Virus record (IMG/VR): IMGVR_UViG_3300025030_000403
Location: 1 to 24,594 of that record
Origin: a virus
Length of the DNA: 24,594 nucleotides
Direction: 5' to 3' (one strand)
In this document: positions 939 to 14,967 of the stretch, piece after piece
Layout: every line of letters begins with the position of its first letter
How positions within the stretch are numbered: the stretch's first letter is position 1
Notes under the pieces: generated by a model
The model's database searches: none
Seen by the model: only the letters and a program-made list of their open reading frames with translations
What the model was told of the DNA's origin: nothing
Translations under genes and position numbers: made by a program

Positions 939-1685
939 CTATTTACGTCCTGCTGCTGCCGCCCTCGCCGCTGTCAATCGCTCGACAGGTGGCAAGTTTG
1001 AAAAATCCTTCCCACCAACTTTCTGCGGTTTTCCTGTTGCCGGACTACCAGAAGATGTTACCTTGAATAGCCACGGCTTTGTAGCGCGACATCCTTCAAG
1101 ATACTCTTCCGGCGAATATGGGCTTTTACCATCCTTCCCGATAACAACCGAACCATCTTCGTTATACTGTACTGCGCGACCATTTTCATCAAGTGCGAAA
1201 ATAGTACGTAGATGACCAAGCAACATTTCATCTACTGCGCCAGTCTGAATATCTGAAATCTTGTTTGCGGCAGATCGGAAGGCATCATCAAGAACCCTAT
1301 CCTTATAGGTATTCGCCTTTGATTCTGCTGCTGCAATCTTGTCGCCTAATTCCTTCTTTTGCCGCTCTTCTTCCATGCGCCATTTCTCTGTGCGCTTCTG
1401 GAATACTTCATCAATCTTACCGTTGGCAATCAGTTGAGCTTCTTCGTCATTCTCAAACTTTGCCATAAATTCTTTAGTTTTCAACGGGTCAATCCCATCA
1501 AACTTCCTCAACGCTTCACGCGCTTCTTTTGCTGCTGCACGTTCTTTCTCAAGCGCAGATTTCAATCCTTTGGTATCTTCAATCCCGTTTACATCAAGTT
1601 TGAATTTACCCTCACTTGCAATATACATATCCTTCAATGCTTCCGGTACTGCGTCCAACGTGTCAACAATAAGTTCAAGAGCCAT
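939..1685 (-). CDS. Head scaffolding protein
   Basis: The 248-residue product is acidic-basic mixed and strongly helical. Residues about 40-140 are rich in E, K, A and Q (LKSALEKERAAAKEAREALR, then KRTEKWRMEEERQKKELGDK), typical of a coiled-coil scaffold. Position between portal and major capsid gene is the classic scaffold slot. Scaffolds guide capsid subunits into a procapsid and are then lost; that role is inferred from position and composition, not from a catalytic motif. The short basic tail (AARAAAAGRK) could be the capsid-binding end. The gene ends with two consecutive TAG codons, which shows that TAG is a real stop in this phage. Confidence 0.75.
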   Translation of the reverse strand: MALELIVDTLDAVPEALKDMYIASEGKFKLDVNGIEDTKGLKSALEKERAAAKEAREALRKFDGIDPLKTKEFMAKFENDEEAQLIANGKIDEVFQKRTEKWRMEEERQKKELGDKIAAAESKANTYKDRVLDDAFRSAANKISDIQTGAVDEMLLGHLRTIFALDENGRAVQYNEDGSVVIGKDGKSPYSPEEYLEGCRATKPWLFKVTSSGSPATGKPQKVGGKDFSNLPPVERLTAARAAAAGRK

Positions 1686-1757
1686 TTTATTTAACCATCC
1701 TAGTTAAGTGCACCTGCACAACATAAGATTATGTAATTAAAGAAAGAATGTCAAGCG

Positions 1758-1898
1758 TTATTTTTTCTTCTTCGCTTTTGCTTTCCTTGCAACACTCAAT
1801 GCAATGGCGATTGATTGAACGGTACTTTTCCCGTGAGCCTTTTCAGTGCGTATATTGGCTGACACAGATCGTTTTGAGTAACTTTTGATAAGCGGCAT
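1758..1898 (-). CDS. Small basic conserved phage protein, 46 aa
   Basis: ATG at 1898 is preceded by GGAGG at good spacing. The product begins MPLIKSYSKRSVSANIRTEK and ends in AIALSVARKAKAKKKK. The pattern SxxxVSxNIxTE followed by a lysine and glycine segment, then QSIAIAL and a lysine-rich tail is one I recall from many small phage and bacterial proteins of unknown function. It is highly basic, so nucleic-acid contact is possible but unproven. The start codon lies 3 bases after the stop of the upstream gene, so the two are probably translationally coupled. Confidence 0.7.
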   Translation of the reverse strand: MPLIKSYSKRSVSANIRTEKAHGKSTVQSIAIALSVARKAKAKKKK

Positions 1899-1901
1899 AA
1901 T

Positions 1902-2102
1902 TCATTCCTCCATTTCGTTAAACAACAATAACGTCATCAACATTTCCTCATCGTCATCCGATACTTCGCATTCCCCGACTTGCAATTGACTGATTGTCTG
2001 ATATTGATGGCAAGTAACATCAATAATGCTATTAACATCGCCTATGTTATTAACCGTTATTTGCGATACTGACTGCGGCTTCATTGCGTAATCGCTAATC
2101 AT
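1902..2102 (-). CDS. Hypothetical acidic protein, 66 aa
   Basis: A short frame beginning MISDYAMKPQSVSQITVNN and ending with an acidic helix (CEVSDDDEEMLMTLLLFNEMEE region). I do not recognise it. The start has no clear Shine-Dalgarno; the alternative start at MKPQ also lacks one. It lies between the GIY-YIG endonuclease and the 46-aa basic protein, and its own 3' end carries the GGAGG used by that next gene. No signal peptide or membrane segment is visible. Confidence 0.55.
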   Translation of the reverse strand: MISDYAMKPQSVSQITVNNIGDVNSIIDVTCHQYQTISQLQVGECEVSDDDEEMLMTLLLFNEMEE

Positions 2103-2113
2103 TAGGTTTAATA

Positions 2114-2935
2114 TTATGCAGCTCCTTCGGCAGCTAGTTTCTCGGCTTTTTTTCTGGCCTTAGTTGCTTTTGTTGACGCAACTCGTTTAGCAATCATTTC
2201 TGGTGGTTGTTTTGTACCTATATTTCTTTTCGCTAAATCTCTTAACATTTCTGTATTTTTTTGGTCGTTCTTATATTTCTCAGATAAGTTAGCACGATGT
2301 TCATTTGTGTGTTTTCTGCCTTTATTACTAAAACCTAATTCTCTTATACGCTCAATTCTATCCTTATCATTTTTAATTGCTTCAGATAAATTCTTACGAT
2401 GTTCATCAGTAAATGGTGGTCTCTTCAATCCCTTACCGCCTAAACTAATTTTCATTTTAGTTTCTTCTGATAATTTCTTTCCAGTATTTATCTTTGATAA
2501 ATATTCTCTCATTTCAACTGGAATTATCTTATCCTTATGTGCATCCCCTATCTTTTTTCTTGTCTCATCAGATGGAGATGGTCTTAATTTTTGTGATGCA
2601 CTCATTTTATTTAATGATTCTTGAGTGTGTTTTCTGCCAAGGCTAGTTCCAGCTATCGGCGCAATGTTATATCCGCAATCTGATGCAGAATAATAATCAA
2701 TAATTGCTTGTTCATACATAATCAAATCTTTTTCTTCACAAACAATTAACTTATTAAACTCAAATGAATCCTCACCATATTTATTCCATGCGCGTTGCAA
2801 TTTAACACTATGATGCTTTTCTTTTCTTAATGATGTTTTATGCCTTGCAAATCTATGTGCAAAAGTTTTAGCACTACCAATATATCGTTTCCCATCAATG
2901 ATATTTACAATTTCATATATGCCAGTATTCATCAT
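2114..2935 (-). CDS. GIY-YIG homing endonuclease with NUMOD3-type repeats
   Basis: The 273-residue protein has the GIY-YIG nuclease module at its N-terminus: GIYEI at residues 5-9, KRYIGSAK at 16-23, the basic RFARH segment near 28 and a catalytic-type glutamate in MYEQAIIDYY near 75. It is followed by four NUMOD3-like DNA-binding repeats: SLGRKHTQESLNKMS, TGKKLSEETKMKIS, RPPFTDEHRKNLSEA and NKGRKHTNEHRANLSEK. This is the SegA-like layout of free-standing phage homing endonucleases, which cut related phage genomes and spread by repair. Its ATG overlaps the portal stop codon (ATGA), so it is coupled to portal translation. The gene is visibly more AT-rich than the flanking head genes, which fits insertion from elsewhere. 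Confidence 0.9.
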   Translation of the reverse strand: MMNTGIYEIVNIIDGKRYIGSAKTFAHRFARHKTSLRKEKHHSVKLQRAWNKYGEDSFEFNKLIVCEEKDLIMYEQAIIDYYSASDCGYNIAPIAGTSLGRKHTQESLNKMSASQKLRPSPSDETRKKIGDAHKDKIIPVEMREYLSKINTGKKLSEETKMKISLGGKGLKRPPFTDEHRKNLSEAIKNDKDRIERIRELGFSNKGRKHTNEHRANLSEKYKNDQKNTEMLRDLAKRNIGTKQPPEMIAKRVASTKATKARKKAEKLAAEGAA

Positions 2936-4416
2936 GCCACCTTTGTAGCTTGCATTGAACCGTCAGGCATCCGCTGAATTTTCGTAACCGCTGGCTGTTG
3001 TTTTGGAATCTTTGCTTTATCTTCTTCAAGACTTCCTTGCTCGCTTTCAAACGTGATATGCGGGTCGTAAAATTCTGATTTTTTAAGATACGAGAAAATT
3101 GCTTCACGAGATACCATTCCACCTTGCATTGATGATACAAGTGCAGTAATCATATCGCTTGTTACTGGCTCTCTAAAGAATTCCTTATTCAATGTAAATC
3201 TTACATCTTCAGGAGAATCGCCAGCCCATTCTGCAAATACTTTCAGCGCAACAGTAAGGCAAGTTGATAATGAAATGCTGATTGCGCTTAATACGGAATT
3301 TTCACCGGAACGATAAATGCCAGCAGTTTGAGCACTTTCGGCCTGAAATTTCTGCCCCTCAAGCATACGCGAACCAATAGATACCATCTGTTGCTCAAGG
3401 CGATTAAGTTGATTTTCCAATGAAGAGAATCCGCCTGTACCTACTTCAGCAATTCCAACTTTAGCGGCAGGATTTGGAAATATAAGTGCTTTCCCACCTC
3501 CGATATGTACACTTTCCCCTTGCTGTAATTCGTGTCCTGTTATGTAAAGTACAGGGAGTGCAGACCAATGATTTCCTGTTGCCAAGTCATTGTACGCTTG
3601 ATAGTGTGAGACACATAAATCTGCCAAGTCTATTAGCATAGGCGTATCAATATCAGGAGTAATATCATCTGGCCCGATGATATACAGCGGTATGTAATTC
3701 ATCATCGCGCCATTCATTGTCGGATAGAACCGTTCAAGTTCTACATCGGTTGATTGGCGATTCTTTTCCTGAACTTCAAATATGCGTACACGATAAACGT
3801 CATTTTCGTCTAAATCTAAAACGCGATAACGGGTTACTTCTTTATCCTCAAACTCATCAATAGGAACAGAATGTTCTTCCTGAATAGTTACCATCGAAAG
3901 TTGATATTTATTATTTACGCGACGTTGCCGCCAGTTAATCATTTGTTCGGCTTTGATAACTGACATATACGGACGCACATTCAACGCCTGAGCATCTGCA
4001 ATGGTCATGGAATCGCTTGTTACTGGATAATTAACCAATACACCAGCACGTCCTACAACTAAACATTCTTCTGCCAATCCTTGAGCAAATACAGTAAGCG
4101 GAATTCCTGTCAGAGTTACATCATCTGTCATTGATTCTGTATTTGGGGGGGCATTTAATACTGGAGAAATTCTGAACAACATGCCTATGAATCCGCTTAC
4201 AGTGCGAAACAAGGCATTGTACAGTACGCCACGCCCGATTCGAGCCATGTACGCTGTCTCAGGTTCATCGGTTAAACGCGGAAGGTATTTAGTGGTATGT
4301 TCGCGCAACTCTTCCGTTCCAGCGAACACGTCTCGACACTTTTCCCATTGACCAAGCATCTCAACATAACTTGGATGCTGCGTCCGAACGCCCTTATTCT
4401 TCTGTGATTGTGCCAT
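2932..4416 (-). CDS. Portal protein (DUF4055 type)
   Basis: This 494-residue protein begins MAQSQKNKGVRTQHPSYVEM and carries the early block QWEKCRDVFAGTEELREHTT, then KYLPRLTDEPETAYMARIGR, which I recognise as the N-terminus of DUF4055 portal proteins. Portals form the dodecameric ring at the head vertex through which TerL pumps DNA. Length and position right after TerL support this. The C-terminus ends in a P/Q/K-rich tail. The Shine-Dalgarno GAGGG lies 7 bases before the ATG, but it is folded into a long hairpin (4419-4457) that could restrain translation. Confidence 0.88.
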   Translation of the reverse strand: MAQSQKNKGVRTQHPSYVEMLGQWEKCRDVFAGTEELREHTTKYLPRLTDEPETAYMARIGRGVLYNALFRTVSGFIGMLFRISPVLNAPPNTESMTDDVTLTGIPLTVFAQGLAEECLVVGRAGVLVNYPVTSDSMTIADAQALNVRPYMSVIKAEQMINWRQRRVNNKYQLSMVTIQEEHSVPIDEFEDKEVTRYRVLDLDENDVYRVRIFEVQEKNRQSTDVELERFYPTMNGAMMNYIPLYIIGPDDITPDIDTPMLIDLADLCVSHYQAYNDLATGNHWSALPVLYITGHELQQGESVHIGGGKALIFPNPAAKVGIAEVGTGGFSSLENQLNRLEQQMVSIGSRMLEGQKFQAESAQTAGIYRSGENSVLSAISISLSTCLTVALKVFAEWAGDSPEDVRFTLNKEFFREPVTSDMITALVSSMQGGMVSREAIFSYLKKSEFYDPHITFESEQGSLEEDKAKIPKQQPAVTKIQRMPDGSMQATKVA

Positions 4417-4418
4417 GC

Positions 4419-4457
4419 GATAACCCTCGCTAAACGAGTAATTTTCGCAAGGGTATC
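4419..4457 (-). promoter_or_regulatory. RNA hairpin masking the portal Shine-Dalgarno
   Basis: On the minus-strand transcript the segment at 4457-4447 (GATACCCTTGC) pairs with 4430-4419 (GCGAGGGTTATC). This gives 11 pairs with one bulge and one G-U, closing a 16-nt loop. The second arm contains GAGGG, the only plausible ribosome-binding site for the portal ATG at 4416. The helix would therefore occlude initiation unless opened. The pairing is seen in the sequence; the regulatory effect is inferred. Confidence 0.55.
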
Positions 4458-4491
4458 AGTGTTCTATGGAATAAGCAAGTGGGTGCCTTAC

Positions 4492-5100
4492 TTACAGTAG
4501 TTTTCCTAGCGATTGCATGTAGGTTATCGGGTCTTTTGCGCTCTTTTTGCTATTACAAGTCTGGCAAAGTAACTGAATGTTGTAATCTTCGTTAGCTCCA
4601 CCCAATGCGAGAGGCATGATATGGTCAAGGTGAACTTTACGCTTTTCTAGTTTATTAAGGTCTTTGTGGCATATCGCACATCTACCTTTTTGTAAAACCA
4701 TTAGCTTTTGGAATATGTCTTTTGATAAAGTTCCACCACTATACAATTTGCGTGCGCGACGATTTTGCTTACTTATTGCACTTTGTGATTTAATTTTTTC
4801 TTTATTTTTAGCATAAAAGTTTCTAGCTAAAAGACAATATGCTTCTGGTTTTTTAGCACGTTGTTTTCTAGATGATTCTCTTGTTGATTCTGGATTTTTA
4901 TGTCTAGATTTCTTTTTTATTTCACGTCTTTTATCTGGGTCTTTATCTCTATTAATTTTACTTTGCTCACATACGCATTCTTTACAATAAGAATTTAATG
5001 CAACCCCATGCCTAATAAAATTCCTTTTATTGACACCATATTCAGATAGCTTCTTTTCTTTTTTACATCTTATACATATTTTATATTCCATAAAAATCAC
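4492..5100 (-). CDS. HNH endonuclease with N-terminal zinc-binding region
   Basis: The product has an N-terminal CIRC...CKEC zinc-binding region (residues about 9-12 and 39-42), a highly basic linker, and a C-terminal HNH module: CAIC at 141-144, HLDHIMPLALGG at 157-168, N174, and CQTC at 179-182. These include the metal-binding and general-base histidines, so the nuclease looks intact. HNH proteins of this form are free-standing homing endonucleases in phages. It sits alone between TerL and portal and is AT-rich. The first possible start is GTG at 5100; ATG at 5091 gives MEYKICIRCKK and may be the real start. Neither has a Shine-Dalgarno, and the coding region follows a U tract directly. Confidence 0.85.
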   Translation of the reverse strand: MIFMEYKICIRCKKEKKLSEYGVNKRNFIRHGVALNSYCKECVCEQSKINRDKDPDKRREIKKKSRHKNPESTRESSRKQRAKKPEAYCLLARNFYAKNKEKIKSQSAISKQNRRARKLYSGGTLSKDIFQKLMVLQKGRCAICHKDLNKLEKRKVHLDHIMPLALGGANEDYNIQLLCQTCNSKKSAKDPITYMQSLGKLL

Positions 5101-5184
5101 AATAAAAAATGCTTCACCTGCCCTCTCATCCTTTCGGAAGTTGAACTAACTGTACTGATACAGCCAGAGAGCATGTGAAGCATT
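5101..5184 (-). ncRNA. Structured RNA or terminator-like element between TerL and HNH
   Basis: A perfect 10-bp inverted repeat, AATGCTTCAC and GTGAAGCATT (plus-strand 5108-5117 and 5175-5184), encloses 57 nt. On the minus-strand transcript an inner helix GCTCTCT/AGAGGGC (one G-U) follows, then two small hairpins, CTGTA-TCAG-TACAG and TCC-GAAA-GGA. The distal arm is followed by a U-rich run TTTTTTATT, like an intrinsic terminator. A second hairpin, AATCGG/CCGATT with an 8-nt loop, lies just upstream at 5193-5212. It could be a terminator for the TerL transcript, an RNA-processing site, or a homing-associated structured RNA. Confidence 0.5.
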
Positions 5185-5230
5185 ATCAGTTAAATCGGAG
5201 TTCAAGCCGATTAGTAATTATACCATACAA

Positions 5231-6577
5231 TTAAAGTCCAGTTATTGTTGCGAATTGCATAACGTGATTCTTTTGAAGTTCCATAAAGCACCTAGACAAT
5301 GAGTCACACTGATCGTCGTGAGAGCAATTTGGGAATCCTTCAAGTTCCTTAATTAGCTCTTCATTCCATTTTGCGCGTAACATTTTTACATTGCCAGAAT
5401 TTAATTGGCTAGCGAATGGCTCAGCCCTTGTTACCTTATCGCCTGATTCTGGGCTTGACGATATTCTGAATCCTGATAGCTTTCGTGTAAGATGTTGCGC
5501 CATGAATTTTCCGGCAGCTCCGGGATCGACGGGCAGTGATTGCAGCACACCCAATCCATCTCTTGTAGCAGTTGCTAATAAAGTATTTTCAACCTCTTCC
5601 GGCATACCACGAAAGCGCACAATATCGCATATCGTATATCTACCTTCGTAATCGACATGCAATAGTGCACCCACGCTGAAGTCTGGGTCATTCCCTTTCT
5701 TCTCGTCGTAGGCCGTACTTGCGAAATCCCACGCACGGACAAAACGACCGCCAATTGGCATCACATCAACATAAGACACATTTTTAGTAGTGAACACTCC
5801 ACCCTCTTTAGCGATGCGAGGCTGCCCCATCCAAATATTTAGATACTTGTCATAGTCCATTTCCTTCATCTTCTCAGCAAGCATGATTGATGATTCGTCG
5901 GCTAGATTATTGTCAACATAATTGACGTGGATAAGCGTTACGTCTGGGTCTGGTGTTAGAACGAATCTACGGTACACATAATCGTCAACATTACCTGTAT
6001 TGAAGCCAATCCATATCTCTGCATCCTTGACACGGATAGTGGGGTCTAACTCATCGAACGTTTCTTCGGCGAGGTCAACAGCTTCCTCAATCCAGCATAT
6101 CTTAGTACCTTCCAGTGATTTAATTTCTTTCATGTTGTGCTTCAATCCGCGAAACACAAAGTCAGTACCAGATTTCCTATGGCGGATTGCATTCACAAGC
6201 ACATTGAACTCGCCATCAAGGTGCAAGTCTTTTATTCTATTCTCAAGAACAGATAATACGGAGTCTGCAATAGTTGATTGAATCTGTCGGCAGCAAAGTA
6301 CGGTTTGTTTTTCTTCCATTGCGCGTAGAATTGCGGCTAGTGCAAATGTCCAGGACTTCGCAGCCGCGCGTCCGCCATATGCAACATAATACCTCGTCCG
6401 CTTATGCCCTCTATCGACGATACGATGCTCTGGAATAAGGTATCCATTTTCGGGATTGATTATCCTGCGCTTGCTATCGAATGCGCCTTCTACCTCTTTG
6501 CCGTTGACTAGGATAATCGGTGCGCGATTTTTGGCAAATAGCGGTAACCAGAGCTTACTCGGCAGTTCTAATTCCAT
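5231..6577 (-). CDS. terL: Terminase large subunit
   Basis: This 448-residue packaging ATPase-nuclease has a Walker A-type loop in YGGRAAAKSW (residues 67-76), a Walker B plus catalytic glutamate in ICWIEEA (160-166), and a C-terminal RNase H-like nuclease. The nuclease acids are visible in RAWDFAST (D284), PVDPGAAGK (D352) and HDDQCDSLSRC (420-430). The layout matches Terminase_3/PBSX-like large subunits and looks full length. It translocates DNA through the portal and cuts concatemers. The start overlaps the stop of the preceding small gene (TAATG), implying translational coupling. Confidence 0.95.
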   Translation of the reverse strand: MELELPSKLWLPLFAKNRAPIILVNGKEVEGAFDSKRRIINPENGYLIPEHRIVDRGHKRTRYYVAYGGRAAAKSWTFALAAILRAMEEKQTVLCCRQIQSTIADSVLSVLENRIKDLHLDGEFNVLVNAIRHRKSGTDFVFRGLKHNMKEIKSLEGTKICWIEEAVDLAEETFDELDPTIRVKDAEIWIGFNTGNVDDYVYRRFVLTPDPDVTLIHVNYVDNNLADESSIMLAEKMKEMDYDKYLNIWMGQPRIAKEGGVFTTKNVSYVDVMPIGGRFVRAWDFASTAYDEKKGNDPDFSVGALLHVDYEGRYTICDIVRFRGMPEEVENTLLATATRDGLGVLQSLPVDPGAAGKFMAQHLTRKLSGFRISSSPESGDKVTRAEPFASQLNSGNVKMLRAKWNEELIKELEGFPNCSHDDQCDSLSRCFMELQKNHVMQFATITGL

Positions 6578-6771
6578 TAGTTACTCATCATAATTTCAGT
6601 GTCAAATATAAAATCATATCTTATGCGAACTATAGTTCTGTCATCGAATTCTATAACAAGAATTGCATCACCAGCAAAATCATCTTCTGATATTTTAGAG
6701 ATTGTTTTTCCGGCAAGAATACTATTTAATTCATCAGCCGGAGCGCCACTAAATTCAACGTCACTCATCAT
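6577..6771 (-). CDS. Hypothetical protein, 64 aa
   Basis: Unrecognised small acidic protein beginning MMSDVEFSGAPADELNSILA and ending with a beta-rich half (AILVIEFDDRTIVRIRYDFI). Its start overlaps the previous gene stop (ATGA) and its stop overlaps the TerL start, so it is locked into the late operon. The repeated hydrophobic-charged strands suggest a small beta-sheet fold. Nothing points to a specific role. Confidence 0.65.
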   Translation of the reverse strand: MMSDVEFSGAPADELNSILAGKTISKISEDDFAGDAILVIEFDDRTIVRIRYDFIFDTEIMMSN

Positions 6772-7010
6772 TCTATTCTTCCCTCAAGGTCAATCCCGTA
6801 AGTCGTCTTAATCTCAAATCTTTCAGGATAGCCTCCCCTGAAATTCTTTTCCTCTGGCGCGTAAATCAATCCAAGTGGCAGCAAATCGCCTGTATCAGGA
6901 TCATCAGAATATATCGGCAAGTCACCATGCTCATTTATTAGCTCTTGCAATACCTCAATAAACCTTGATGCTTTGCAAGTTTTGTCTAATTCAAATTCGT
7001 AATAAGACAT
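6768..7010 (-). CDS. Hypothetical protein, 80 aa
   Basis: Starts MSYYEFELDKTCKASRFIEV; ATG at 7010 is preferred because the in-frame TTG at 7016 overlaps the dCTP deaminase stop and has no better ribosome-binding site. The segment ELINEHGDLPIYSDDPDTGD resembles a motif seen in small phage proteins (a helix followed by HGDLPV-like and acidic residues), but I cannot name the family with confidence. It lies between dCTP deaminase and the 64-aa gene and overlaps the latter. Confidence 0.65.
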   Translation of the reverse strand: MSYYEFELDKTCKASRFIEVLQELINEHGDLPIYSDDPDTGDLLPLGLIYAPEEKNFRGGYPERFEIKTTYGIDLEGRIE

Positions 7011-7012
7011 AA

Positions 7013-7579
7013 TCAAATCTTCGGCAAAGTAACGCCAGTTTGTCCTTGATACTTTCCGCCACGGTCTTTATACGAAGTCTCGCATACTTCATTCGCCCAG
7101 AAAAATAAGAATTGTGCGATACCTTCATTAGCGTATATCTTTGCTGGCAATGGCGTTGTGTTTGAAAGTTCAAGTGTTACTTGTCCTTCCCACTCCGGTT
7201 CTAGTGGCGTTACGTTTACAACCAATCCTATTCTGGCATACGTCGATTTACCCAAGCAAATAGTCAGCACATTACGCGGTATCTTGAAATACTCAACTGT
7301 CCGTGTAAGCGCAAACGAGTTTGGCGGAATAATACAATAATCGCCTTTCACGTCAACGAAGCATTTTTCGTCAAAGTTCTTCGGGTCAACTATCGTGCTA
7401 TTGATATTCGTGAATATCTTGAATTCATCTGAGCAACGAGCATCATATCCATAGCTTGATGTACCATAAGATACGATTCGCTTACCATCAACTTCTTTTA
7501 CTTGGTTTGAACTGAATGGCGAAATCATGTCGTGCTTTTCGACCATCCTACGAATCCAGCTATCAGATTTTATGCTCAT
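7013..7579 (-). CDS. dcd: dCTP deaminase
   Basis: The 188-residue protein matches the trimeric dCTP deaminase/dUTPase fold. It shows the active-site block GKSTYARIG (110-118), the [16 protein letters not shown] segment (125-140) with the catalytic-type glutamate in TLELSN, and the C-terminal lid [13 protein letters not shown] (174-186). The enzyme converts dCTP to dUTP, feeding dTTP synthesis. Length is that of cellular Dcd. The start at 7579 overlaps the DUF3310 gene by 17 bases and has a GAGAG-type ribosome-binding site. Its place beside TerS/TerL in the same operon means it is co-expressed with packaging genes. Confidence 0.95.
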
Positions 7580-7805
7580 TTTCTCTCTTTTCTATCTCGC
7601 AATTTATATAAAATACTGCTTTTTTCAAATCTTCAATAGCGTTTCCTTTTAGGTCTGCGCGCCATAGATATTTTTGTGCGCTACCTATGCAAAAGTTCAT
7701 ATGTTTTGCAATCTGTATACATTCTATTGACGCACCGCATGAGCATTTTGCCGGTGAAGATGTATAGTGTTTCGGATGATTAACATTGTCACTCGTTGGT
7801 ATCAT
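7563..7805 (-). CDS. DUF3310 family protein
   Basis: The 80-residue product has the DUF3310 signature: VNHPKHYTS near residue 8, [20 protein letters not shown] (28-47) and [20 protein letters not shown] (47-66). This small family is frequent in phages and is sometimes labelled nucleotide kinase-like, though its biochemistry is unclear to me. Being next to dCTP deaminase suggests a nucleotide-metabolism link, but that is inference. It overlaps both neighbours. Confidence 0.85.
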
Positions 7806-8367
7806 AAATATCCACGTCAGTTACATTCTCAATCACTTTTTCTTGCACTTTACGCTCCGATAAAAAGTTCAGCTGGAATACAGGCCTGCTATCTTGGCTC
7901 AGCGTAACCTCTTGCGGAATAGACTTCTCGTTGAACTTTACCCTATCTCTCAATCCCGCAATCTTCATGGCATGTTCAGCCCTAGCCTTTGCGATACCAG
8001 CTTGTGCAGCAGTCAATTCTTCGCCCTTTGCAGCCGCTTGTTCGAGGTACATGGCAGCATCATCAGCAAGTGCCATCGCGGACGCTTGCATGGCAGGTTC
8101 TAGCGCGTCTCTGTGGAAGGCCATCCACTTGATTAGTTGCTCACGCGATAGTCCTAGCTTCTTGGATGTATCGTCAAGCGTTAATCCGTTCACCAGATAA
8201 TTCAGTATCGCACCAGCACCTCCGACAGCTTCAATGCGCCTTGCTGAATCTTCACTTGGCGCAATAAGGTTCTTGATATTCTCGACGCGCAATACCTTCA
8301 TCGTCTCGTCATCAAGAGCGACTATTTTATTATCGTCAACGATGGCGATTCCTTTTGAATGGTTCAT
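7789..8367 (-). CDS. terS: Terminase small subunit (probable)
   Basis: A 192-residue protein with an HTH-like segment GLTLDDTSKKLGLSREQLIK (about 61-80) followed by WMAFHRDALEPAMQASAMAL and a long alanine-rich helical region (to about 140). This layout, a DNA-binding HTH before a coiled oligomerisation region, is that of small terminases, which recognise the packaging site and regulate TerL. It lies upstream of TerL in the same operon, separated by nucleotide-metabolism genes. Alternative: another HTH regulator; position favours TerS. Confidence 0.72.
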   Translation of the reverse strand: MNHSKGIAIVDDNKIVALDDETMKVLRVENIKNLIAPSEDSARRIEAVGGAGAILNYLVNGLTLDDTSKKLGLSREQLIKWMAFHRDALEPAMQASAMALADDAAMYLEQAAAKGEELTAAQAGIAKARAEHAMKIAGLRDRVKFNEKSIPQEVTLSQDSRPVFQLNFLSERKVQEKVIENVTDVDIYDTNE

Positions 8368-8510
8368 GGTTTTTTAGGATAGGTGTATATTTGAGTAAGC
8401 GCTGCAAGAATAAGGAATACAGCAGCCCATACTCTATGGTCTGAATGACCACTTGCCATCCATACATTTGCCATTATCAAATTGGCATAAAATGCTATTT
8501 CATTTTTCAT
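8364..8510 (-). CDS. Small one-pass membrane protein, 48 aa
   Basis: ATG at 8510 overlaps the previous stop (TAATG) and the stop overlaps the TerS start (ATGA). The product begins MKNEIAFYANLIMANVWMAS and has one hydrophobic segment, VWAAVFLILAALTQIY (about 27-42), followed by a short basic end KKP. That predicts a single transmembrane helix. Small membrane proteins in phages include holins and superinfection factors, but nothing here decides the function. Confidence 0.6.
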   Translation of the reverse strand: MKNEIAFYANLIMANVWMASGHSDHRVWAAVFLILAALTQIYTYPKKP

Positions 8511-8734
8511 TATGCAATACCGTCAATTCTATTGCGAAAATCTATCATAGATTGTTTGTTGGCACGACCTTCAACACTACCCACAAAATCGGATTCGCAA
8601 GCATCACAGTGCAAAAATTGAGATTCAATCATGCCATTTTGTTCAGCGTATTCAACTTCGATATTTTCATATTGCAGTGTTGCGTTACCTTCTTCGCATA
8701 GATGGCATCTATATTCATTGCAGCTTCTGCACAT
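8510..8734 (-). CDS. MqsA/YgiT-like zinc-binding protein, 74 aa
   Basis: The chosen start at 8734 gives MCRSCNEYRCHLCEEGNATL; a longer in-frame start at 8851 would overlap the upstream gene widely and is disfavoured. Two Cys pairs (CRSC/CHLC and CDAC) flank a beta segment, and the tail GRANKQSMIDFRNRIDGIA closely resembles the N-K-x-x-M-x-x-F-x-x-x-V-D-G end I recall in phage proteins annotated as MqsA-family antitoxins. The HTH domain of full MqsA is absent and no MqsR-like toxin is adjacent. Function may be unrelated to toxin-antitoxin activity. Confidence 0.65.
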   Translation of the reverse strand: MCRSCNEYRCHLCEEGNATLQYENIEVEYAEQNGMIESQFLHCDACESDFVGSVEGRANKQSMIDFRNRIDGIA

Positions 8735-8939
8735 CTTTAGGTTCAACTTCGCAGCAGCCACAATCGCATTCATTATCATCCTCTGCCATTTCGTTGCAGA
8801 TAGATTGCCACTGTGCTTTATACATTGTCTTGAGTGTATCCAATGTACCAATTACTTCGCTGTAAGTTGTCTCTTCTGCATCAAACTTATCGCCAATGAA
8901 ATCCATCAATTCGTCAAACAAATCTTGTTTTTCACTCAT
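8715..8939 (-). CDS. Hypothetical acidic Cys-containing protein, 74 aa
   Basis: ATG at 8939 is chosen because GAGGAG lies directly upstream; an earlier in-frame TTG would run through that site. The product MSEKQDLFDELMDFIGDKFD... is acidic and helical, ending with ECDCGCCEVEPKDVQKLQ, a cluster of four cysteines. The cluster may bind metal. It overlaps the downstream MqsA-like gene by 20 bases, implying coupled translation. Not recognised. Confidence 0.65.
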   Translation of the reverse strand: MSEKQDLFDELMDFIGDKFDAEETTYSEVIGTLDTLKTMYKAQWQSICNEMAEDDNECDCGCCEVEPKDVQKLQ

Positions 8940-8943
8940 ATCA

Positions 8944-9168
8944 CTACTCCTCAAAATTCTTCACTTCGTGCATTTCGCACATACCATGAAAGTTGTCCAT
9001 AAAAATAATTGCATTCCCACCTTCACACGCGCATCCAAATCCAGCAACATCACTTACGCTTCCTTGATTGATACCGCTATTCCACGGATGTTTAAATATC
9101 ACGCGCTGATGCTTACAATTACAGCAACAGCTATCGTACCATCTAGGCTTCATACAAGTATCAGACAT
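8944..9168 (-). CDS. Cys-rich hypothetical protein, 74 aa
   Basis: ATG at 9168 has an AAGGAAT ribosome-binding site; earlier in-frame codons lie inside the RHH gene. The product MSDTCMKPRWYDSCCCNCKH continues with FGCACEGG and MCEMHEV. The Cys/His spacing (CCCNC ... CAC ... CEMH) suggests a zinc-binding fold. It is one of three consecutive small Cys-rich genes here. Role unknown. Confidence 0.65.
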   Translation of the reverse strand: MSDTCMKPRWYDSCCCNCKHQRVIFKHPWNSGINQGSVSDVAGFGCACEGGNAIIFMDNFHGMCEMHEVKNFEE

Positions 9169-9298
9169 GATTATTCCTTTCCAACCAATCGGTAACAGCC
9201 CTGCGAATAATCTCGCTGACAGGCATTCCAGTCGCAAGTTTCGCAGACTTTAATCTTGACAGCAATTCAAGCGGGAAATAAAGGTTGATACGTTTCAC
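9161..9298 (-). CDS. Ribbon-helix-helix DNA-binding protein, 45 aa
   Basis: A GTG start at 9298 overlaps the metallophosphoesterase stop (GTGA), and the stop overlaps the next gene start. The product begins MKRINLYFPLELLSRLKSAK and continues LATGMPVSEIIRRAVTDWLE. A short beta strand (RINLYF) followed by two helices with SEIIRRAV is the classic ribbon-helix-helix pattern (Arc/MetJ/CopG-like dimer inserting the strand into the major groove). It is a candidate transcription regulator and the only obvious one in the left operon. Its operator is unknown. Confidence 0.75.
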   Translation of the reverse strand: MKRINLYFPLELLSRLKSAKLATGMPVSEIIRRAVTDWLERNNHV

Positions 9299-10512
9299 TT
9301 TATACTCACCCACGATTCTGTGTGTTCTGTTCGCTCAATAGCATCTGACACGTTCACCGGCATTGTGAATGTGATTCCGTGGTCGCGGTGCGTTATCCAC
9401 ATTGCTTGACGGGGTTGTTCATACGGGAAGTTATTAGCGTATGCGTATTCATTGTAACCGCATAATGAGCTATTTACGATAAGTCGCTGCAACTGTATGA
9501 GTTGATGGAAGTGCCCGAGTAGCAATGTGTCATATCCCATATCAATCTGATTGTTACGGCTTCTTTTTTTATGGTCTCCCCTTGTTATAGGCCCGAGGCA
9601 ACCAATCATAGAATCGCCCCCTCTGAACTGATCTCCATGAGTAAGCAAGTACCTATGCCCATAAATCCGGTAGTAAGCATCCGGCCCGCTTGGGATAAAA
9701 AATGTCACGCGCTTATCAGTCTTAAAATGCTTTTCCAGTAGCACATAAGTTAACCAGTCAAGCGATGTGTATGCCCTATCCTTTGCGCGTATCTTGATGG
9801 TTGTTCGCCCATGGTTGCCCGTAACACAAGGCACGAACACTTTGCCAAACTTATCAGCAAGCGTTTCTATGCACCATATAAGCGTTCCGAACAAGTCAAC
9901 GACTGCTGGTATCAACGGGATATCATTAGTCTCTTTAAGCTCATCGTGGATGTCGCCAGATACCATGTCGCCGCCGAGTGCTACGACAATTCCGGGATAT
10001 TTCGGATTGACCATGTGATTATTCAGCAAATCGATTGCGCGATTTACAAGTTGCTTTGCGCGGTCTTGCGCTATTTCGATATTGTACTTATTCACACCAC
10101 CGATTTGCGTAGGATCAATCGTTTCGCCCCAATGCCAGTCTGAGCATAACAATGTCGGAACACCGGGCGATGACTTTGGAGGCTTGGAATCAATCAACCA
10201 ATTTGGCGGAACTGCCGATGTTTCAGACAATCCAAATATCTTCGACCTGATATATTTGTCTGTCAGTTCTTCACGTTTATATGATGATAACTGCGCTTCA
10301 AGTGTAGCGATTCGATGTTTTGTTGTATCTTCATTATTCTTTACTACAACACCGCTTGGCTTAAAGTTGCGTTCCGATGCACATTTCAACCTGTTATTAA
10401 ATGTCCCCCTAGGAATGTTTAATGATGCAGCAGCTTCAGTTTTATTACTACATACAGCAAGTGCGTCAATTGCTTCCTGCAATTGATCATCAGTATTTAA
10501 TGGCTGGCTCAT
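9295..10512 (-). CDS. Metallophosphoesterase with N-terminal HTH
   Basis: With ATG at 10512 (ATGA overlap with the previous gene) the protein has 405 residues. Residues about 10-45 hold an HTH of the type SNKTEAAASLNIPRGTFNNR. The calcineurin-like domain follows with all metal-site motifs: SDWHWGE (124-130), GGDMVSGDIH (180-189), GNHGR (232-236), THGDQFRGG (291-299) and GHFHQ (333-337). It should hydrolyse phosphodiester or phosphomonoester bonds with two metals. The HTH plus esterase pairing is found in phages and points to a nucleic-acid substrate, but the substrate is not known. Confidence 0.9.
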   Translation of the reverse strand: MSQPLNTDDQLQEAIDALAVCSNKTEAAASLNIPRGTFNNRLKCASERNFKPSGVVVKNNEDTTKHRIATLEAQLSSYKREELTDKYIRSKIFGLSETSAVPPNWLIDSKPPKSSPGVPTLLCSDWHWGETIDPTQIGGVNKYNIEIAQDRAKQLVNRAIDLLNNHMVNPKYPGIVVALGGDMVSGDIHDELKETNDIPLIPAVVDLFGTLIWCIETLADKFGKVFVPCVTGNHGRTTIKIRAKDRAYTSLDWLTYVLLEKHFKTDKRVTFFIPSGPDAYYRIYGHRYLLTHGDQFRGGDSMIGCLGPITRGDHKKRSRNNQIDMGYDTLLLGHFHQLIQLQRLIVNSSLCGYNEYAYANNFPYEQPRQAMWITHRDHGITFTMPVNVSDAIERTEHTESWVSIK

Positions 10513-10724
10513 GCGTGACACCTCGGCTTGAAAAATTGGCAGGCAACGTCTTCCATATCAACAGGAAGACCTCGTTTGAAATCGGGAACACCATCTTCCC
10601 ATACAGGAATTGGCGGCGATACCCAACAATGGTATTCTTTTGCGCCCTTAACCTTTCCATAGGAGCATACACCGCAACACTCACCGGGAAATTTTTGTTT
10701 AGGTAGTGCTGTAATCTTCGCCAT
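10509..10724 (-). CDS. Cys-containing hypothetical protein, 71 aa
   Basis: ATG at 10724, just after the upstream stop, gives MAKITALPKQKFPGECCGVC. An alternative ATG at 10736 overlaps the preceding gene. Cysteines in ECCGVCSYGK and a later YHCW...VACQFFKPRC suggest a zinc or disulfide-type small domain. The W/P-rich middle (YHCWVSPPIPVWEDGVPDFK) is typical of small phage proteins of unknown role. It is coupled to the metallophosphoesterase by an ATGA overlap. Confidence 0.6.
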   Translation of the reverse strand: MAKITALPKQKFPGECCGVCSYGKVKGAKEYHCWVSPPIPVWEDGVPDFKRGLPVDMEDVACQFFKPRCHA

Positions 10725-10725
10725 A

Positions 10726-10935
10726 TCAAGGCTCATCACAACAAATTGTATTTGATACATTCGATGGATATACGTCAATCGGCTTTCCGATTGCTTTGAC
10801 ATATCTCAAATCACTCTCACGTTTCCGTGATTCAATGAGCATTGCGCTCAATTGTTTTGGCGTATATTCTATGAATTGCCCGTTCTCTACTAACTTAAAA
10901 CTCAATACGCCATCAATAACGTTTTCTTCAAACAT
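10726..10935 (-). CDS. Hypothetical protein, 69 aa
   Basis: Starts MFEENVIDGVLSFKLVENGQ with a near-perfect Shine-Dalgarno GGAGGTGAT 1 to 6 bases upstream. The middle FIEYTPKQLSAMLIESRKRE looks helical. No motif is recognised. The strong ribosome-binding site implies good expression within the leftward unit. Confidence 0.65.
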   Translation of the reverse strand: MFEENVIDGVLSFKLVENGQFIEYTPKQLSAMLIESRKRESDLRYVKAIGKPIDVYPSNVSNTICCDEP

Positions 10936-10936
10936 A

Positions 10937-11137
10937 TCACCTCCCTCCGAAAATATCTTTCAAAAAATCCGGCATTTCACTTGAATGAGATTTATTACGA
11001 TTACGATTCTGATTAAGCATTGATTTAATTATGTCGTTGCATGGCTTGCAATATACCGCCATGCCAGCGCGCACCTTTGCATCACGCAATGTCGCCATGA
11101 ATTTACCGCAATGTTCGCAATGTAGTTCTGTAGTCAT
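10937..11137 (-). CDS. Zinc-finger protein, 66 aa, first gene of the leftward unit
   Basis: From ATG at 11137 the product is MTTELHCEHCGKFMATLRDA..., with CEHC and CKPC pairs 22 or so residues apart forming a zinc ribbon, then a basic N/R/K-rich linker and a short acidic-hydrophobic end (PDFLKDIFGGR). In-frame starts at 11158 and 11164 add an N-terminal extension but lie upstream of or within the likely promoter (11146-11174). If that promoter is right, the transcript starts at or about 2 bases before this ATG and is nearly leaderless, since no Shine-Dalgarno is present. Likely nucleic-acid binding. Confidence 0.6.
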   Translation of the reverse strand: MTTELHCEHCGKFMATLRDAKVRAGMAVYCKPCNDIIKSMLNQNRNRNKSHSSEMPDFLKDIFGGR

Positions 11138-11145
11138 GGGAGCGC

Positions 11146-11174
11146 AGTGTATAGACATATACACACAATGTCAA
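11146..11174 (-). promoter_or_regulatory. Sigma-70-type promoter for the leftward unit
   Basis: On the minus strand TTGACA (11174-11169) is followed after exactly 17 bases by TACACT (11151-11146). The predicted start is near 11139, next to the ATG at 11137. A copy of the palindromic operator (11189-11205) lies 14 bases upstream of the -35. Confidence 0.55.
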
Positions 11175-11188
11175 TTACTTTGTGAATG

Positions 11189-11205
11189 CTGTAATCCGAT
11201 TACAG
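11189..11205 (-). repeat. Palindromic operator copy 1
   Basis: CTGTAATCCGATTACAG, the only copy with the centre base in this orientation. It lies 14 bases upstream of the -35 of the leftward promoter, an activator-like position. Confidence 0.85.
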
Positions 11206-11385
11206 TTTTTGTCAATAATTATGTTCACGCTACCTGCTTTGTTCATTTTCGATGAACATTCCATAAATGGGCATGTTCGTACCCAATTTGGGTAAATCAG
11301 CCAATTTTGCGCATGATAGTTCACATAAAATTTAACCAATGTTCCAAATTACCAGCAGATTTTAATAAATGTAGGTAAATCGGAA

Positions 11386-11402
11386 CTGTAATCGGATTAC
11401 AA
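11386..11402 (+). repeat. Palindromic operator copy 2
   Basis: CTGTAATCGGATTACAA in the middle of the intergenic region, 17 bases before an inverted repeat AGTTATACT/AGTATAACT. Confidence 0.85.
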
Positions 11403-13175: not shown

Positions 13176-13203
13176 ATTATAGCATAAGCAAGATTTATTG
13201 CAA
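13176..13203 (-). promoter_or_regulatory. Extended -10 promoter of the nucleotidyltransferase gene
   Basis: On the minus strand TTGCAA (13203-13198), a 16-base spacer ending in TGC, and TATAAT (13181-13176) form an extended -10 promoter. The predicted start near 13169 leaves a leader of about 23 bases. The palindromic operator at 13204-13220 abuts the -35 hexamer. Confidence 0.7.
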
Positions 13204-13220
13204 CTGTAATCGGATTACAC
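13204..13220 (+). repeat. Palindromic operator copy 4
   Basis: CTGTAATCGGATTACAC, directly adjacent to the -35 box of the nucleotidyltransferase promoter; the centre is roughly 43 bases upstream of the predicted start, a class II activator-like or repressor position. Confidence 0.9.
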
Positions 13221-13257: not shown

Positions 13258-13285
13258 TTTACTTGGCGGCGGATATGTCTATAAT
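13258..13285 (+). promoter_or_regulatory. Promoter driving the structured leader
   Basis: TTTACT (13258-13263), a 16-base spacer and a consensus TATAAT (13280-13285) point rightward. The predicted start is about 13291. It is divergent from the nucleotidyltransferase promoter, with operator copy 4 between them. Confidence 0.55.
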
Positions 13286-13290
13286 GCTCG

Positions 13291-13415
13291 ACATCAGCGT
13301 TGTGCAGCGCGAAAGAAGGTTTGACCCAGTTGTCATAGGCATGTAGGGGAGAAATCCCGCCGACCTTCTTCGGTACTGCACACTACATGACCTATAACAA
13401 CTGGGTTTTTGTTTT
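13291..13415 (+). ncRNA. Structured leader RNA with competing helices and terminator
   Basis: Helix H2 pairs 13325-13346 with 13383-13405: CCCAGTTGT/ACAACTGGG, ATAGG/CCTAT and CATGTAG/CTACATG, with one mismatch and one bulge (21 pairs), followed by TTTTTGTTTT, so it can act as an intrinsic terminator. Helix H1 pairs TGTGCAG (13301-13307) with CTGCACA (13376-13382) and AAGAAGGT (13313-13320) with ACCTTCTT (13363-13370), across a 5x5 internal loop. H1 encloses the 5' arm of H2, while the 3' arm of H2 starts right after H1, so they compete or form a pseudoknot. A GGGA-GAAA-TCCC tetraloop hairpin sits at 13347-13358. Either an attenuator for the downstream genes or a free small RNA. Confidence 0.7.
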
Positions 13416-13867
13416 ATGCGCTGATTGTATTATTGGTCTATCGGAATAGCTGCGTCACGAGAGTACATTTGGCGGGAAGGAAGTGGGTAAATCCATGTAG
13501 TCCCGTTAGAGCGCGGTGTAACGGTCTGGAGTAATGCATATTGGCGCATCAGAAGGCTTCCTAGGCGCGGGTGATGGGTGGTTGTATATATTGCTGTGCT
13601 GCTTTGGATGGCAAGGATAACCGAGTGCTTAACTGACACCGTAATGCCGCAAACGGATATATGCACTGACGGACACTTGGATACAACATGCTAGTTGGAA
13701 AACCGTTGGATATTGAATGATTGCGTTTAATTCAAGACCGGGATGCGTACTGCGAGGCTCCGAACCGGATAAAACCAGAACCCGAACTTATGCGTAATTG
13801 CATCGGTTTGGGGTAGGGTAGTTTTTGACCAAAAAGCACCAACGCCCACCATCCCGGATAAATTACA
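13416..13867. other. Region without a supported gene
   Basis: No frame here is convincing on either strand. A 78-codon minus-strand frame at 13430-13666 has no ribosome-binding site and no family character. One perfect hairpin is visible, CCGTTA-10 nt-TAACGG near 13503-13524. The stretch follows the U tract of the structured leader and precedes the Zn-ribbon gene, so it may be an extended leader of that gene. Confidence 0.4.
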
Positions 13868-14104
13868 ATGAACATAACGAAACAATGCGACACTTGCAAA
13901 CAATCCAAGCCACTCTGCGAGTTCTTCAGCCCACCACAAGGCGCGGCAACATCTTGGCAAGGAACCAGCGAACATTGCAAGCAGTGCCACAAAGAAGCGA
14001 AAGTGCCGCACGGTTACGGATATTATGGCAACAACTGGACTTACCCAGACGATACTCCGTTTGGACTGAAGTGTAATCGGATTACAGAAAGGAAGGAAAA
14101 GTGA
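13868..14104 (+). CDS. Small zinc-ribbon protein, 78 aa
   Basis: The product begins MNITKQCDTCKQSKPLCEFF and continues with SEHCKQCHKEAK, giving two CxxC pairs (about residues 7-10 and 37-40) of a zinc ribbon. A second half GYGYYGNNWTYPDDTPFGLK is aromatic-rich. Such small proteins precede DNA-modification genes in some phages. The stop (TGA 14102-14104) overlaps the GTG start of the methyltransferase frame. Operator copy 5 lies inside its last codons and encodes CNRIT, so an operator and coding sequence coincide. Ribosome-binding site is weak (GGATAA). Confidence 0.65.
   Translation: MNITKQCDTCKQSKPLCEFFSPPQGAATSWQGTSEHCKQCHKEAKVPHGYGYYGNNWTYPDDTPFGLKCNRITERKEK
14071..14087 (+). repeat. Palindromic operator copy 5
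   Basis: GTGTAATCGGATTACAG, inside the 3' end of the Zn-ribbon gene and ending two bases before the AAGGAAGG ribosome-binding site (14089-14096) of the next gene(s). Confidence 0.88.
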
Positions 14105-14967
14105 ATGAATCAATGCACCTTTTTGCTGGAGCAGGTGGCGGATTGCTTGCCGACCTCATTATCGGACACAATCCAGTCTGCGCAGTCGAGTGGTAGCCAT
14201 ACGCCTGCCGAATCCTGCGAGAACGCGCCGCCGAAGGATGGTTCCCTGACCTGCGGGTGTACGAGGGAGACATTAGGGTGTTCGATCCATCCGAATACGC
14301 GGGACGAATACATACAATCCATGCGGGATTCCCTTGCACAGATATTAGCGTTGCAGGGAAACAAGTTGGAGTTGGCGAAGGAACACGAAGCGGATTGTAT
14401 AGGGAAGTCCTACGAATCGCTGGCGTGGTACGACCAAGAGAAATCTTCCTGGAAAACGTCTCAGCAATCCTTTCTAACGGATTGGGAACCGTTCTCGGAG
14501 ACTTGGCCGCGCTCGGGTACGATGCGAAATGGATATGTATTCGAGCTTCCGATGTTGGCGCAAATCACCAAAGAGACAGATGGTGGCTACTTGCAAGACA
14601 AGTATTGGTTGACTCCATCGACCATACAAATAACTCCAAGTCAGAACAGACGAGAAAAGCGGACCGAATACAGAGCATCGGTAGGAAGGAAGGATTCCCC
14701 AGGGTGTTTGGAGGAACAAGTAATGACACAGAAGTTTTGGCCAACACCGACATCCCACAATGCGAAAGAGGGAGCGTATCCATCGGAGTATCTTCTGAAT
14801 ACGCCGACACTAGCATCGGAAGTTGGTGGAAAACTGAATGCCTCGTGGGTAGAATATCTAATGGGATGGCCAATAGGATGTACAAACTTAAAGCAATAGG
14901 AAACGGTCAAGTTCCATTGCAGGCAGCTTTGGCATATATGATGTTGTCAGAATTATCCGCAAAGTAG
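14101..14967 (+). pseudogene. C5-cytosine DNA methyltransferase, interrupted by an amber codon
   Basis: Read in one frame, this is a complete C5-methyltransferase of about 288 codons: motif I LFAGAGGG (residues 7-14), motif IV GFPCTD with the PC catalytic loop at 14332-14337, motif VI ENV at 14452-14460, motif VIII HQRDRWWLLA and motif X AIGNGQVP at 14893-14916. Codon 32 is TAG (14194-14196) in CAVEW-stop-PYACR, where the family normally has E or D. One G-to-T change explains it. TAG is used as a normal stop elsewhere, so the enzyme is probably inactive unless suppressed. The variable region is short, so target specificity cannot be read. Confidence 0.8.
14105..14899 (+). CDS. Intact +1-frame ORF overlapping the methyltransferase, 264 aa
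   Basis: This frame runs stop-free over most of the methyltransferase. Its ATG lies 8 bases after AAGGAAGG, an ideal spacing, whereas the GTG of the methyltransferase frame lies only 4 bases after it. The product contains SWKTSQQSFLTDWEPFSETW, then PRSGTMRNGYVFELP, WPTPTSHNAKEG and LNASWVEYLMGWPIGCTNLK. I recall such blocks (SWKTSQ, WPRSGTMRNG, WPTP, WVEWLMGWPxGWT) from phage proteins annotated as methyltransferase-associated or hypothetical. The amber mutation of the other frame is synonymous here (GGG to GGT). Minus-strand frames of 80-106 codons are also open in this region, so composition bias may contribute. Function unknown. Confidence 0.5.
   Translation: MNQCTFLLEQVADCLPTSLSDTIQSAQSSGSHTPAESCENAPPKDGSLTCGCTRETLGCSIHPNTRDEYIQSMRDSLAQILALQGNKLELAKEHEADCIGKSYESLAWYDQEKSSWKTSQQSFLTDWEPFSETWPRSGTMRNGYVFELPMLAQITKETDGGYLQDKYWLTPSTIQITPSQNRREKRTEYRASVGRKDSPGCLEEQVMTQKFWPTPTSHNAKEGAYPSEYLLNTPTLASEVGGKLNASWVEYLMGWPIGCTNLKQ

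Follow-up and report, generated by a model that had tools for sequence, protein, structure and literature searches.

In the window, the complete stretch of 24,594 nucleotides of viral DNA analysed here, a conserved element was located at positions 13293–13425 on the + strand, in which two long helices (A and B), two small hairpins and a U tract follow a sigma70-type promoter. The promoter, TTTACT-16-TATAAT (13258–13285, +), matches the consensus at 10 of 12 positions, in line with an earlier note on this DNA, which had described a consensus promoter starting the RNA; a −10-like hexamer lies 6–8 nt ahead of the motif AUCAGC in all relatives. Upstream of the promoter, a repeat search detected the operator-like palindrome TGTAATCGGATTACA (13203–13217). 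At least eight copies are present in the window (those at 11387, 11544, 13203, 14072, 15162, 15210, 23423 and 23689 among them), mostly in intergenic positions, and several were found in related contigs too. In the relatives L007, L013, L005 and L016, too, the element is preceded by a copy. These palindromes are probably operators of a phage repressor.

The first gene downstream encodes a small CxxC zinc-ribbon protein (13868–14104, +). This ORF gave weak matches to the N-termini of phage HNH/endonuclease VII families, and its DNA is 84–89% identical in relatives. A cytosine DNA methyltransferase frame follows at 14101–14967 (+). It carries an in-frame TAG near its start (14191–14196 region, ...VEW*PYAC...), downstream of the motif LFAGAGG; the gene may be broken, the sequence may be in error, or there may be a restart at GTG 14257. 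The gene order is the one given in the earlier note, which had placed the RNA upstream of the zinc-ribbon and methyltransferase genes; it is not simply upstream, however, as about 440 nt of further noncoding sequence (13426–13867, +) lie in between. Elsewhere in the window, a free-standing GIY-YIG/NUMOD3 gene (2114–2935, −) and an HNH endonuclease gene (4492–5100, −) adjoin the portal and terminase genes, and the spot beside the terminase gene is occupied by different sequence in relatives.

The predicted transcript starts at AUCAGC (13293–13298), which is nearly invariant in relatives and forms the 5′ half of an outer repeat. The 3′ half, GCUGAU, lies at 13420–13425, is present in most relatives and reads GCUGGU in the L152 allele. 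As this repeat, missed previously, flanks the structure, the conserved element extends to approximately 13425. Pairing of the two halves is unproven, since they are mostly invariant and give no proof by covariation. Helix A is built from a 5′ arm at 13301–13320 and a 3′ arm at 13363–13382, with 7 outer pairs (13301–13307/13376–13382) and 8 inner pairs (13313–13320/13363–13370) separated by an internal loop, which together make up the 15-pair early helix reported before. Helix B, the putative terminator helix, is formed by 13324–13346 and 13383–13406, its 5′ arm following that of A after a linker of 3 nt in the window copy. It is a long helix in front of a U tract, as claimed, but comprises 22 pairs with one mismatch and one bulged A instead of 21 pairs. 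The two 3′ arms are indeed directly adjacent (boundary between 13382 and 13383). The GNRA-type tetraloop hairpin seen earlier in the centre corresponds to H2 (GGGA-GAAA-UCCC, 13347–13358, +), with a GAAA loop. A second small hairpin, H3 (GCCG/CGGU, 13359–13374, +; stems 13359–13362/13371–13374), was absent from the earlier description. Its loop consists of the inner 3′ arm of A, which would thus be displayed in the B state. The U tract UUUUGUUUU of the putative intrinsic terminator (13407–13415, +) follows the last base of helix B without a gap.

RNA folding gave −58.3 kcal/mol, compared with −34.0 ± 3.7 kcal/mol in shuffled sequences (MFE z −6.5), and no other 125-nt stretch of the window, on either strand, has a lower energy. 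A shuffle test for perfect helices was discarded as proof against chance, because 2.4% of the shuffles were equally good; the claim that the structure is not accidental therefore rests on folding energy and covariation. A simple terminator scan returned no entry for helix B, since its loop limit was set to 8 nt. Reading of the leader sequences revealed no small ORF conserved across the alleles.

Homologues were collected from terminase-gene relatives and by core-pattern searches among IMG/VR contigs. Nine or more phage contigs, the GenBank phage MW202573 among them, carry the element; by sequence they fall into about six lineages. Copies are 97% identical in L007, L050 and L125, 95% in L013 and 80% in L005/L118 (= L150), and further copies are present in L148 and L149, in other phages. 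Using the window copy as query, nothing similar was retrieved among annotated phages or plasmids. The GenBank homologue (L153) surfaced only with the L149 copy, whose noncoding stretch served as query; its leader is largely different in sequence, with the same helices. A pattern made from the outer arms of A led to L160 and L161, which were scored at 71 and 62 bits by the covariance model R1. The core GCATGTAGGGGAGAAATCCCGCC is identical in several phage groups and changed in L153. The sibling phage L016 is 99.5% identical to the window over positions 1263–11261; beyond that, its right-hand module differs, the RNA allele included, which looks like a module exchange. This allele (L016/L152) is of unrelated sequence behind a similar promoter and has the same A5-B5-A3-B3 order, H3 loop and U tract; as model R1 fails to recognise it, only the architecture can be called shared.

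Pattern matches in a genome collection, none with flanking helix arms, were judged likely chance, and patterns from the downstream region of L148/L149 matched, beyond these two, only coding-like DNA in which the element is absent. A loose descriptor search was useless for finding members; a stricter one recovered the known members and one minus-strand candidate near the terminase gene. This candidate, located at 5095–5235 (−) between the terminase and HNH genes, again shows the A5-B5-A3-B3 order and a U tract, both following a TATAAT. Among relatives it occurs solely in the near-identical sibling L016, and one match of equal score also came from a shuffled control, so that it may be due to chance or represent a simple terminator.

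The case for a selected RNA is carried by the alignment of seven sequences. Helices A and B together with H2 and H3 comprise 45 pairs, and 99.4% of the cells are paired; 21 of the 45 pairs show changes on both sides, a result equalled in none of 500 shuffles, and pairing dropped to 34–40% when the register was slid. For helix A, all cells are paired (100%) and 10 of 15 pairs have changes on both sides; the corresponding values for helix B are 98.7% and 8 of 22. The four pairs of H2 are kept in all seven sequences, one with a change on both sides and more changes in L160 and L161, as are the four pairs of H3, two of them with changes on both sides. Covariation is extended by L160, L161 and L153, of which the first two contribute further, different pairs. 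Both helices covary strongly, that is, the compensatory changes on which the earlier note had made its proposal depend are present in homologues, and this indicates that both were selected as RNA. The + strand is the functional one, since several pairs are G-U in + strand RNA and would be A-C mismatches on the opposite strand. In every homologue, the arms of A come first, the arms of B enclose the hairpins and the U tract stands at the base of B, with 7–8 T in 9 bases in eight alleles and T-rich sequence also in L160 and L161; promoter spacing is kept in all alleles. As these comparisons show, selection on the + strand has kept A, B, H2, H3 and the U tract, behind a conserved promoter.

In all alleles, the strands follow the order A5-B5-A3-B3, i.e. 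that of an H-type pseudoknot, and A and B are without common bases. The earlier idea that the early helix traps the 5′ arm of the terminator holds insofar as this arm is enclosed in the loop of A, but it is not base-paired by A. Across the alleles, linkers of 3–5 and 0 nt stand against stems of 15 and 22–26 pairs and are too short for both complete stems. Mutual exclusion of A and B is therefore likely, as linkers of 3 and 0 nt would have to cross helices of 15 and 22 pairs; on these geometric grounds, the exclusivity is likely steric. Within these limits, the two helices may form a partial pseudoknot.

Downstream of the element, the picture is variable. Homologues of the stretch 13426–13867 were sought and none were found; its folding z is near 0, and it resembles none of the stretches of the relatives. 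In all relatives except L013, roughly 270–590 nt without a convincing ORF separate the element from the first gene; L013 kept the element and lacks the long stretch. In L148, L149 and L153 the stretch can be aligned, shows matched stem changes and has a folding z of about −2, and the conserved structured RNA begins directly after the outer repeat GCUGAU. In L150 and L161, the Rfam family RF02932 (Betaproteobacteria-1 RNA) is found about 60–80 nt downstream of the element, with scores of 50.6 and 60.9 bits at a gathering score of 49.4. As the downstream stretches are unrelated between groups, the leader gives the impression of a module behind which the noncoding sequence can be exchanged. Among the first genes downstream, ones for small CxxC zinc-ribbon proteins, for HNH proteins or for DNA methyltransferases are frequent. 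An RF02932-like RNA, unannotated there, was also observed after the primase gene of Acidovorax phage AP1 (L158, 2980–3100), where the element would not fit; possibly, RF02932 is an RNA of phages more generally. When 369 genomes from a single bacterial class were searched with RF02932 and model R1, there was no match, a result that, without a positive control, shows little.

The reading favoured here, at about even confidence, is that the element would act as a promoter-proximal terminator/antiterminator gate at the head of a phage transcript. In RNA starting at approximately 13292, helix A would fold first, and its loop would close around the 5′ arm of B. The adjacent 3′ arm of B would then emerge, and because the helices are interlocked with linkers of 3 and 0 nt, full B could form only if A opens. 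If B had formed while the polymerase is on the U tract, transcription would stop and an RNA of about 120 nt would be released; if A held, the polymerase would read through into the long noncoding stretch and then into the zinc-ribbon and methyltransferase genes. We infer that B terminates and A antiterminates, with a factor or the speed of the polymerase deciding. In unforced folding of transcript prefixes, with a model that ignores pseudoknots, A was best until most of the 3′ arm of B was out, and B thereafter (about −36 versus −50 kcal/mol). The crossover in the window copy came at 18 of 24 nt of this arm, which coincides with the U tract when a polymerase footprint of 14 nt is assumed; in L148 and L153 it came earlier than in other alleles, which counts against the gate. 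The gate is favoured because the later helix carries an intrinsic-terminator signature, a stem followed by a U tract, in every allele, because A is complete before B, and because the handover coincides with the U tract. The sibling phage, with the same design in unrelated sequence at the same place, is a further point for it, as are the covariation in both helices and the preserved promoter spacing.

The structured RNA directly behind the outer repeat in L148, L149 and L153 weighs against this reading and suggests that the read-through RNA matters; the U tract, the data suggest, need not be an efficient terminator. The same observation fits the main alternative, rated as rather unlikely: a long (400–700 nt) phage noncoding RNA whose folded 5′ domain is the element. 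In it, A and B would coexist at least in part, as a pseudoknotted core, with the U tract as linker and the outer AUCAGC/GCUGAU clamping the domain. The RF02932 RNA that follows in L150 and L161 and the long noncoding sequence behind the element in all relatives but one fit this explanation, and the inner 3′ arm of A inside the loop of H3 is a typical pseudoknot design. Yet the linkers are too short for complete helices, a GC-rich helix with an immediate U tract in every allele would be unexpected for a mere linker, and the 5′ element is kept nevertheless where the downstream stretch is unrelated or, in L013, absent.

L013, with the element but without the long stretch, fits a free, trans-acting small RNA, about 120 nt long, that ends at B and the U tract and uses A in folding or target pairing. 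We consider such an RNA unlikely: it would have its own promoter and terminator signature and a core identical in several phage groups, but this core is altered in L153, the outer repeat and the following RNA are conserved past the terminator in other relatives, and a target sought in the window was not found, only matches of chance length. The geometry had also been likened to that of an attenuator or riboswitch. The attenuator layout recurs in every homologue, whereas a strict ligand-sensing riboswitch, in which the hairpin core would be the aptamer and A/B the expression platform, is very improbable; the terminator/antiterminator geometry and the partly conserved core would suit it, but no Rfam riboswitch matched even at E up to 10, the core, unlike an aptamer, is not conserved in all lineages, and the downstream genes are variable and not metabolic.

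On the comparative evidence, the element is a real, previously uncatalogued RNA, absent from Rfam. Unusually clear covariation in two helices that interlock makes the putative switch readable directly from sequence. If the element gates transcription, an attenuator built on interlocking, with no bases in common, would be of a distinct design, and the element would for the first time place the orphan Betaproteobacteria-1 RNA, and long noncoding stretches heading phage operons, in a genomic context. More tentatively, and with doubt prevailing, a modular class of phage regulatory RNAs can be envisaged, in which two topologically interlocked helices with no common bases serve as a co-transcriptional timing switch gating long, exchangeable noncoding RNAs, some with Betaproteobacteria-1 RNA.

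In an Rfam search of the window, no family covered the element, whether matches were taken at the gathering threshold or up to an E of 10, and a literature search, whose reach did not include the source paper of RF02932, yielded no description of the element or of that family. The RF02932 model had no match in the window; its matches in L150 and L161 lie past the element, in a separate segment. Known attenuators, such as trp-type leaders and riboswitch expression platforms, are promoter-proximal leaders with two competing long helices, of which the earlier forms first and the later is a GC-based hairpin with a U tract. The element shares the promoter-proximal leader, the two long, probably competing helices, of which the earlier is predicted to fold first, and the U tract at the later, GC-based one. 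It differs in that its helices have no common bases, exclusion presumably arising by interlocking, which to our knowledge is unusual among attenuators, in that no leader peptide, tRNA or ligand element was recognised (no tRNA was found in the window), and in that noncoding sequence, not a gene, follows. GOLLD and ROOL are large phage noncoding RNAs with pseudoknots, GOLLD consisting of a variable and a constant half (PMC12286853). The element differs from both, as neither Rfam model matched in the window or in relatives. The leader of the lambda late promoter (pR′, 6S RNA, tR′) and the HK022 put RNA are short terminated phage RNAs with regulated read-through. A phage promoter and a short terminated RNA with regulated read-through, as proposed here, would be common to them and the element, a likeness for which sequence and fold were compared through Rfam. 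In L148 and L149 the element stands just before the terminase genes, in L149 right after ninG, which resembles the lambda arrangement; in the window, by contrast, the operon behind the element is that of the zinc-ribbon and methyltransferase genes, which runs divergently from the terminase genes.
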